A DNA stretch of 64,000 bases from Caldicellulosiruptor naganoensis (GTDB lineage: Bacteria; Bacillota; Thermoanaerobacteria; Caldicellulosiruptorales; Caldicellulosiruptoraceae), in the NCBI RefSeq assembly GCF_026914285.1, contig NZ_CP113864.1:409501-473500 (forward strand), in the 5' to 3' direction. A program made the position numbers and the translations under genes. Shown one piece after another: positions 8,651 to 28,047 of this stretch (the first letter of the stretch is position 1; every line of letters starts with the position of its first letter). The notes under the pieces were generated by a model, which was not told the origin of the DNA, did not search any database, and saw nothing but the letters and a program-made list of their open reading frames with translations.

Positions 8651-9039
8651 ATGATATTGTGAATAATTGGATTAAAAAGGCTCTGGAGGATTTAAAGGTT
8701 GCAGAGCATGAGCTATCTTTAGAGGAAAATCAGATGGTAACAAGTGCTATTTGTTTTCATTCTCAACAAGCAGTTGAAAAGTTGCTCAAAGCTTACCTTA
8801 CTTCAAAGAATGTTAAAGTCGGCAAATCTCATGATATAGCATATCTTTTACAGCTTTGTATACATCAAGATAGTGATTTTTTAAAACTAAAGGAATTAAA
8901 TGTGGAGCAGCTGACATTTTATGCTGTTGAAATTAGATACCCGGATGATTTTTATATTCCGTCGATAGAAGAAGCTAAAGCTTCTTATGAATTAGCAGTG
9001 TTAGTCAAAGAATTTATTCTCAAGAAAATTGAAGTTTAA
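8647..9039 (+). CDS. hepT: HEPN-domain protein (toxin of an MNT/HEPN module)
   Basis: 130 aa all-helical HEPN protein. It carries FHSQQAVEKLLKAYL, typical of the family, near residue 38, GKSHDIAYLL near 60 and VEIRYPDDF near 97. HEPN toxins are metal-independent RNases using an R-x4-6-H motif; here the catalytic motif is not obvious in its canonical spacing, so activity is uncertain. The start overlaps the MNT stop. Its position immediately upstream of an anti-phage locus fits a defence-island toxin-antitoxin pair. Confidence 0.82.
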   Translation: MNDIVNNWIKKALEDLKVAEHELSLEENQMVTSAICFHSQQAVEKLLKAYLTSKNVKVGKSHDIAYLLQLCIHQDSDFLKLKELNVEQLTFYAVEIRYPDDFYIPSIEEAKASYELAVLVKEFILKKIEV

Positions 9040-25952: not shown

Positions 25953-26080
25953 CAGTGAAAATTAAGAAGATTCATGCTTGATATTGCAAATTAAAAAATT
26001 AATGTGATAGAATTATGATAACACTAAATTATTGATTTTAAACAAATGAAGTATTTTAGATGGATAGGGGGATTATTCTA

Positions 26081-27949
26081 ATGATTACTATCAACAAAGA
26101 AAAGTGTGTAAACTGTTATAAGTGCATACGTGTATGTCCTGTACAATTTGCTAATGTTATTGACGGAGAATATATAAAACTTGACAATGATTTTTGCATC
26201 AAGTGTGGAAGATGTATAAAGCACTGTGAACATGGAGCAAGGGGTTTTATAGATGATATTTCTTTGCTTAAAGAGATGTTAGCTTCTGGTATAAAACCTA
26301 TTGCAGTTGTTGCCCCCTCAGCAAGAGCCAATTTCAAAATAGGAAAACTTATAAATACTTTGAGAGAAATTGGATTTAAAGAGGTTTACGATGTTTCTTT
26401 TGGTGCAGATATAACCACTTGGGCTTATATCAGATACATTCAGCGTTTTTCCAAAAAAAGTGTTATTGCTCAACCATGTCCTGCAGTAGTTAATTACATA
26501 GAAAAACACATTCCTCAACTTCTTGATTATCTGATTCCTGTCCAGAGCCCAATGATGTGTGTAAGTATTTTTCTGAAAAAATATTTGAAAAAAACCGAAC
26601 CAATAGTTTTTATTTCTCCATGTATTGCTAAAAAAGACGAGATAGCAAGATTTCCTGATATTGTCCAGTTGAATGTAACATATATTTCCTTGATGGAAGA
26701 ATTTGGTGATGTATACAACAGGGCAGCTGATACAGGAAAGTTTGATTATGCTGAAGGGTATTTAGGAAAACTTTTTAGCAGACCAGGCGGATTAAAAGAG
26801 AATGTTCATGCATATTTCAAGGATGCAAAAGTAAAACAGATCGAAGGTGATATAATATTTGAATATTTAGAAAAAGACTATTTGAATACGCCAGACAATC
26901 AAAAACCTCTAATTGTTGACATATTAAACTGCCACGAGGGGTGCAATAAAGGAACCGCTACCAAATTAGATGTTCCTATCGATGTAATAGATTATGAATT
27001 TGATGTTATGAAGAAAAGTACGTATAACAAATTCAAAAGTAAAAGATTGTTTAAGTTCTTCGACAAAAAACTTAAATTAGAAGACTTTATGACAACGTAC
27101 TCAAACAAAAGCAAGTATTTAGAAAAGCCTTCTTCTGATGTGTTAGAAAATATCTACAATGAAATGCTAAAAACCTCGACAGAAAAGAGAAATTTAAATT
27201 GTTCAGCTTGCGGATATGATTCTTGTGAAGAAATGGCTATTGCAATCTACTATGGATATAACAGAAAAGAAAATTGTGTAAATTACTTAAAAGATAAACT
27301 GTCTCTTGAGAATGAAGAATTATATACCAAAAATATACAAATAAATAAACTATTAGATAATATTAACAATACTCAAAAACAACTTGAGGAATTAATAAAT
27401 GAAGTGGCATTTGCTACAGATGTTGTAGATAGGAGTATGCAAGAGATAGCTGTTGGATATAGTGAGAGTGCTAAAGAAATTGAGAATATATCTACTTCAG
27501 TTTCTGGATTATTAGCTCAAATTAAGTTACTTGATAGTATTAGTAAAGAGTTGTCTACGAAAATTGATATTCTAAACAAAACAAATAATATACTTCAGGA
27601 TATAGGAAGTAGCATATCTCTTTATGCTTTAAATGCTTCTATTGAAGCTTCAAAAATAACTGAGTCAAAAGGTTTTTCTGTTATAGCCTCAGAAATAAGG
27701 AAACTTGCAGATAGAATGAAAGTTGAAACATCTATCGTAAAAAAGGAATTTGATACAATGATCAGTTTGATGAACCAGATCCCTGATTTATCGGAGAAAA
27801 TTTTAAATGCGATTGAAAATATAAACAGTTCTTTAGTGAATGAAAGTGCCCTGATTGAAGAATTAACGGCGAAAAGTGAGGAAATTTCAGCTGAAATTTC
27901 ACGACTCAATGCATTAATTCAGCAAGAAGGTGTACTAGAAGAAAAATAA
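26081..27949 (+). CDS. Ferredoxin/[FeFe]-hydrogenase-like/chemotaxis-signalling fusion protein
   Basis: 622 aa from ATG 26081 (AGGGGGA 8 nt upstream). Order: a two-[4Fe-4S] ferredoxin domain (CVNCYKCIRVCP, CIKCGRCIKHC, residues 8-55); an Fe-hydrogenase large-subunit-like domain with divergent H-cluster motifs AQPCPAVV, SPCIAKKDE and CHEGCNKG; an Fe-S motif NCSACGYDSCEEMA near 374; then a helical region with a methyl-accepting-type signalling tip (LNASIEASKITESKGFSVIA). This is the sensory group C hydrogenase plan (HydS-like): a redox or H2 sensor whose output end is like a chemoreceptor but without membrane segments. The motifs differ from catalytic hydrogenases, so H2 turnover is unlikely to be its main job. 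It stands alone. Confidence 0.85.
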   Translation: MITINKEKCVNCYKCIRVCPVQFANVIDGEYIKLDNDFCIKCGRCIKHCEHGARGFIDDISLLKEMLASGIKPIAVVAPSARANFKIGKLINTLREIGFKEVYDVSFGADITTWAYIRYIQRFSKKSVIAQPCPAVVNYIEKHIPQLLDYLIPVQSPMMCVSIFLKKYLKKTEPIVFISPCIAKKDEIARFPDIVQLNVTYISLMEEFGDVYNRAADTGKFDYAEGYLGKLFSRPGGLKENVHAYFKDAKVKQIEGDIIFEYLEKDYLNTPDNQKPLIVDILNCHEGCNKGTATKLDVPIDVIDYEFDVMKKSTYNKFKSKRLFKFFDKKLKLEDFMTTYSNKSKYLEKPSSDVLENIYNEMLKTSTEKRNLNCSACGYDSCEEMAIAIYYGYNRKENCVNYLKDKLSLENEELYTKNIQINKLLDNINNTQKQLEELINEVAFATDVVDRSMQEIAVGYSESAKEIENISTSVSGLLAQIKLLDSISKELSTKIDILNKTNNILQDIGSSISLYALNASIEASKITESKGFSVIASEIRKLADRMKVETSIVKKEFDTMISLMNQIPDLSEKILNAIENINSSLVNESALIEELTAKSEEISAEISRLNALIQQEGVLEEK

Positions 27950-28010
27950 CTGAGGGGATGAAAAACCCAAAAAATTACTTTTCTTAATTGTTTTGCTAAT
28001 TGAGAGTGGG

Positions 28011-28047
28011 GGTCTTTGCAGACCAGGTTTGCAAAGACCTATTTTTG
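28011..28047 (+). terminator. Intrinsic terminator
   Basis: GGTCTTTGCA (28011-28020) pairs perfectly with TGCAAAGACC (28030-28039), followed by TATTTTTG. Confidence 0.85.

Follow-up and report, generated by a model that had tools for sequence, protein, structure and literature searches.

What does a protein sense, and to which partner does it report, when a hydrogenase-like domain and the signalling tip of a chemotaxis receptor are joined in one chain? This question is raised by a gene of Caldicellulosiruptor naganoensis in the window analysed here (the whole stretch of 64,000 nucleotides, which is part of a one-contig genome of 2.49 Mb). Its open reading frame is intact, extends from 26081 to 27949 on the forward strand, on which all other features of the window described below also lie, and encodes 622 amino acids plus a stop codon. 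An alternative in-frame ATG at 26060 would yield 629 residues, but the ATG at 26081, which the preliminary description had already chosen, is the better start because a ribosome-binding site (AGGGGGA, 26066-26072) sits 8 nt upstream of it. Residues are numbered from this ATG. Further upstream is a weak sigma-A-like promoter match (TTGCAA-N18-TAGAAT, 25984-26013), although the number of such matches in the region does not exceed that in shuffled sequences; genomes G005 and G001 have the match too, with TAAAAT as the second hexamer. A scan of the region upstream of the gene for sigma-D (motility) and Rex sites gave no match. A terminator-like hairpin of 14 pairs with a T-rich tail follows 3' of the gene (28010-28040), with about one such match expected by chance. 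Three further species of the genus have the gene at 89-99% conservation, and the dN/dS values lie at 0.09-0.18.

Four domains follow one another in the protein, and each scores above its Pfam gathering cut-off. The first is a two-cluster ferredoxin domain (Fer4_10, 26084-26239, E = 1.3e-8); its eight cysteines, C9 to C49, occur without exception in the 20 fusions aligned. It is followed by a divergent [FeFe]-hydrogenase H-domain (Fe_hyd_lg_C, PF02906, 26294-26980, E = 1.5e-29), then by an FeS domain (PF04060, 27200-27277, E = 1.8e-5) placed between the H-domain and the coiled coil and containing an exact Cx2Cx4Cx16C motif, the four cysteines of which are invariant across this protein and 19 other fusions to methyl-accepting chemotaxis protein (MCP) domains. 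The last is a chemoreceptor-type helical hairpin (MCPsignal, 27272-27940, E = 8.4e-12). No membrane span was found when the whole protein was scanned, the best 19-residue Kyte-Doolittle mean being 1.5, inside the H-domain. Domain order and hydropathy both agree with the preliminary description, which had proposed a soluble protein uniting ferredoxin, divergent hydrogenase, a further Fe-S motif and a signalling domain; the last of these is recognized by its profile at 45.7 bits against a cut-off of 34.6. Judged by its domains, a sensory H-domain plus an MCP signalling domain, the protein is of the kind that HydDB defined in 2016 as [FeFe] group C2, "chemotactic (putative)" (PMC5037454). The type itself is thus already catalogued rather than new, of which the preliminary description was unaware. 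In the literature searched, we found no experiments on any C2 protein and no paper describing the Caldicellulosiruptor gene. We consider it moderately probable that the protein is a cytoplasmic receptor of the sensory [FeFe]-hydrogenase type, with H2 or redox state as its input and CheW/CheA, possibly through an altered partner, as its output.

The output end was modelled separately. An AlphaFold2 run on residues 398-622, made with 27 unrelated receptor sequences, gave a two-helix hairpin with its turn at 526-529 and a pLDDT of 91.5, whereas a full-length run with three sequences reached a pLDDT of 47 and was left out of the fold search. The best Foldseek match of the hairpin model was 3g67, a soluble receptor of Thermotoga maritima (TM 0.82), and the other matches, a YfmS-CheW model and Tsr, are likewise chemoreceptor signalling domains. 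Membership in the MCPsignal family is therefore indicated by the antiparallel model and the fold match as well as by the profile. The hairpin is short, however. In every H-domain/MCP fusion that we found, the tip asparagine is followed by 85-113 residues, compared with 132-167 for the remaining receptors encoded in these genomes, apart from three entries with larger values that are tandem or mis-hit motifs. The C-terminal arm of the present protein has 105 residues, which places it outside the 36H and 44H length classes, the only ones for which methylation has been reported (PMC6829392); it contains one near-consensus candidate methylation site, SALIEELTAK. By length, the fusions are a short, membrane-free class, and the shortening of the receptor arm in every one of them is a new observation.

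The tip itself has been rebuilt. Its sequence, LNASIEASKITESKGF (27629-27676), is one residue shorter than the canonical tip, with nine residues instead of ten, and both glycines of the canonical turn GExGRG (G390 and G393) are lost. This form is shared by a clade consisting of four species of the genus and members of two other genera (G022 and G030). When the E385-F396 spacing was counted with a loose pattern in 120 tips, 114 had ten residues, five distinct tips of the clade had nine, and one had 15. The spacing of 15 residues belongs to another receptor of the genome studied here, encoded outside the window (L083, G000:C1 at about 2332101-2332562), whose tip carries the five-residue insertion SEKINILALNASIESAKLESVLGENFKTGFHVIADQ. 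Conservation among 113 canonical receptors reaches 100% for G390 and G393, 99% for L378, and 90-94% for Q374, T375 and N376, values that lean upwards because these receptors were picked by a fixed-spacing pattern. In the clade, G390 is replaced by T, K or D, G393 by a gap, L378 by Y, Q374 by S or N, T375 by I, and N376 by S or A, while N381, E385, F396, V398, A400 and E402 are retained, among them the array-contact positions N381, E385, V398 and E402. The tip is also the most constrained part of the protein and under strong purifying selection, with a dN/dS of 0.04-0.05 against 0.07-0.08 for the H-domain and 0.09-0.10 for the whole protein. These values rule out decay through loss of function and indicate a conserved redesign. 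The rebuilt, strictly conserved tip of this clade is likewise reported here for the first time; related fusions outside the clade have canonical tips.

The shortened arm and the rebuilt tip, both of which escaped the preliminary description, weaken the simple picture of a receptor that plugs into the chemotaxis array, and the tip suggests an altered coupling in the clade, such as a dedicated CheW/CheA pair or a modulatory role. The genomic context likewise counts against the reading that we prefer. The genome encodes two CheA and three separate CheW proteins, and CheA and CheW are encoded in every genome tested. Thus, the partners sought on the basis of the preliminary description do exist, but none adjoins the gene: none of the 12 neighbourhoods compared contains a CheA, CheW or motility gene linked to the fusion, and the comparison found no neighbour gene common beyond the genus. 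It is conceivable, if unlikely, that the chemoreceptor-like end works outside CheA/CheW arrays altogether, its tip binding some other partner or only dimerizing, and that the output is not chemotaxis. Such a role would fit a tip that is strongly conserved in three genera in its altered form, the absence of che neighbours, and an arm that does not match the length found in any of the genome's other receptors. Nevertheless, six characteristic tip residues are kept, related fusions beyond the clade have the standard tip, and all these genomes encode the Che partners. In addition, Rhodobacter TlpC interacts with CheW4 and CheA3 in a two-hybrid assay in spite of having no glycine turn (PMC6829392); Che coupling is thus compatible with an altered tip. 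A related scenario, in which the tip of a hydrogenase-derived sensor was reshaped to quit the standard CheA/CheW array for a dedicated or non-Che partner, strikes us as rather unlikely; if true, thermophilic fermenters would possess an H2/redox signalling route of their own inside the cell, separate from the standard one.

Turning to the input end, the H-domain belongs to its superfamily by profile (PF02906, 103.8 bits against a gathering cut-off of 22.1) and by its four cluster cysteines. An alignment of this protein with 19 other MCP fusions found C133, C181, C284 and C288, together with K184 and E187, invariant in all 20 proteins. The motifs around them are nonetheless altered. In L1, catalytic TSCCP is AQPCP (26468-26482), which retains the ligand Cys133 and replaces the proton-shuttle cysteine by proline; in L2, catalytic MPCxxKxxE is SPCIAKKDE (26615-26641), with Met353 replaced by serine and Cys181, Lys184 and Glu187 retained; and in L3, catalytic xMACxxGCxxG is ILNCHEGCNKG (26921-26953), with Met497 replaced by leucine, Ala498 by asparagine, and Cys284 and Cys288 retained. 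In CpI numbering, and compared with L001, the catalytic enzyme that this genome also encodes, C299 is thus Pro, M353 Ser and M497 Leu. The proton-shuttle cysteine and the two methionines framing the diiron site are gone, while the CN-anchoring lysine, the adjacent glutamate, the proline before the L2 cysteine and the Phe/Gly-Gly region of the ADT site remain. Compared with catalytic enzymes, about 30 residues are missing between L2 and L3, a shortening that PAS-type relatives share. Changes at C299, M353 and M497 are reported to be the mark of sensory enzymes (PMC8163306; PMC10055695). TmHydS of Thermotoga maritima is altered at the same three positions (PMC10055695), and TamHydS of Thermoanaerobacter mathranii, with Ser at M353 and Leu at M497, nevertheless holds an H-cluster and shows slow H2 turnover (PMC8163306).

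Does the present protein carry such a cluster? The genome encodes HydG and HydF, so an H-cluster can be made in the cell; in the reading that we prefer, the protein would contain the 2Fe subcluster. Lys184 was dropped as proof of this, since it is also invariant in proteins of genomes in which no maturases were detected. It seems rather improbable, but deserves consideration, that the H-domain lacks the 2Fe subcluster, its four cysteines holding an ordinary [4Fe-4S] cluster, and that the protein is a general sensor of redox state, O2 or a gas such as NO or CO with a chemoreceptor output. L1 (AQPCP) and L3 (LNCxxGCN) are unlike their counterparts in all characterized H-cluster enzymes, and asparagine occupies position 498 in 20 of 20 fusions. 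Moreover, an acetogen survey of 2022 discarded its group C2 hits when they failed the H-domain cluster-motif check (PMC9431212), and HydG/HydF were not found in 10 of the 30 module-carrying genomes that we screened. However, nine of these 10 hold catalytic hydrogenases, which need the maturases, so that their absence may be an assembly gap, and both the presence of the two maturases in the genome studied here and the retained lysine, glutamate, proline and ADT-site region favour a genuine H-cluster. The nine genomes with a catalytic [FeFe]-hydrogenase but no detectable HydG/HydF (G047, G131, G056, G350, G355, G092, G143, G282 and G389) include two congener pairs that share the absence, which may reflect assembly gaps or unusual maturation. 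It should also be noted that several catalytic HydA proteins (L001, L199-L201, L210 and L211) have the L1 motif TSCSPGW, with serine at the position expected for the fourth cluster cysteine. We consider it very improbable that the protein is a catalytic hydrogenase to which a C-terminal coiled coil was added by accident: its H-domain homology is real (up to 255 bits for solved catalytic enzymes with the family profile), yet proton-path and second-sphere residues are lost, the scores against NCBIfam catalytic subfamilies are far below their cut-offs (144 of 450 bits for B1 and 99 of 406 for group A), no other region is as constrained as the tip, and in sister proteins different signalling domains are attached at this joint. 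The assignment as sensory rather than catalytic, made from the altered motifs in the preliminary description, has therefore held up, and neither of the outcomes that would have refuted that description, placement in a catalytic group or a missing signalling-domain match, came about.

The phylogeny of the sensor module offers support for a signalling role. The clade holds together (99/98) and is nested among 34 modules that form a well-supported group (100/99), distinct from the group C enzymes of the PAS type. The outputs in this group of 34 are mixed, comprising MCP domains, histidine kinases, a HATPase/Hpt-like kinase, sigma-54 activators and GGDEF domains, and the MCP ends require at least five label changes on the tree, a count that is slightly inflated because L100, labelled "other", is an MCP fusion by Pfam. 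The presence of different outputs on the same sensor module is a new observation. The outputs appear to have been swapped at one joint after the FeS domain, behaviour that fits a sensory module. The gene is found in four of 12 species of the genus; being missing or lost in most of them, it must be dispensable. In G009, an 80-codon remnant with stops persists at the same place (L114 at about 8736-8993; G009:C1:710736-710993), between an M48 peptidase and unrelated genes, which is evidence of loss in progress within the genus. Positions 26060-27949 are 98.7% identical to the gene of G005 (G005:C1:2429955-2431841), whereas the flanking genes shared by the two genomes are 72-95% identical, which suggests recent exchange or recombination; most of the differences within the gene cluster in the N-terminal arm (residues 406-490). 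A full-length relative, 37.5% identical, is present in Acetoanaerobium noterae on NZ_CP154629.1 (L229), a sequence labelled "plasmid pTPELB2" that spans 2.63 Mb and is thus probably a chromosome.

For the cytoplasmic H2/redox receptor that we prefer, the following mechanism may be envisaged. The ferredoxin clusters and the divergent H-domain would work at low turnover and signal either H2 or how reduced the ferredoxin pool is. The change would reach the short antiparallel coiled-coil hairpin by way of the C-terminal FeS domain, which most likely relays it as a conformational movement and not through reduction of its cluster. Two hairpins would form a four-helix bundle, the tip of which would control the CheA kinase through CheW, as in soluble chemoreceptors, without membrane anchoring. 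The C-terminal cluster of TamHydS stays oxidized under 1 atm H2 and its reduction was rejected as the signal by the authors of that study (PMC13104023), a result that counts against the preferred reading. With no adjacent CheA or CheW gene and no conserved neighbour, the link to H2, chemotaxis or transcription drawn in the preliminary description is one that we can only infer; H2 would be the signal and CheW/CheA the output. The rebuilt tip is also an experiment of nature on what chemoreceptor arrays really require of their tip residues. Although sensory [FeFe]-hydrogenases were proposed years ago, neither TmHydS nor TamHydS has, to our knowledge, a known output partner. The 2026 study of TamHydS considers the missing interaction partner the key gap (PMC13104023), and a fusion of H-domain and chemoreceptor tip in one chain would close it, as CheA kinase activity in vitro or swimming could be read directly against H2.

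Among known systems, HydDB group C2 likewise ties an H-domain to an MCP domain, with H2 sensing proposed (PMC5037454); the present clade is distinguished by its shortened, glycine-less tip loop, and HydDB contains no analysis of tips or arm lengths. TmHydS (group C/M2f) has the same order of two-cluster ferredoxin, H-domain and FeS domain and the same four H-cluster cysteines, with Ala, Gly and Ser where our protein has Pro, Ser and Leu; it ends, however, in a PAS domain instead of an MCP hairpin, and its gene shares an operon with that of a catalytic hydrogenase, unlike the present gene, which stands alone. TamHydS (group D/M2e) has the same residues at M353 and M497 and the same C-terminal Cx2Cx4Cx16C motif, but stops after that cluster and adjoins HydABC. 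The genome studied here holds a group D-like, TamHydS-like protein of its own (L002, 448 residues), about 5 kb from the gene of the bifurcating-type catalytic subunit HydA (L001), both of them elsewhere in the genome than the fusion. The TamHydS-like protein is preceded by a small anti-sigma/ATPase-like protein (L002 1075-2421 and 2451-2918, at about 1.456 Mb of G000), which makes a further candidate for signalling partnership in group D. At the output end, T. maritima 3g67, Bacillus subtilis YfmS and Rhodobacter TlpC and TlpT similarly combine a hairpin signalling domain with the lack of a membrane span, and TlpC shares the missing glycine turn with the clade; unlike the protein described here, none of them is fused to a hydrogenase domain.
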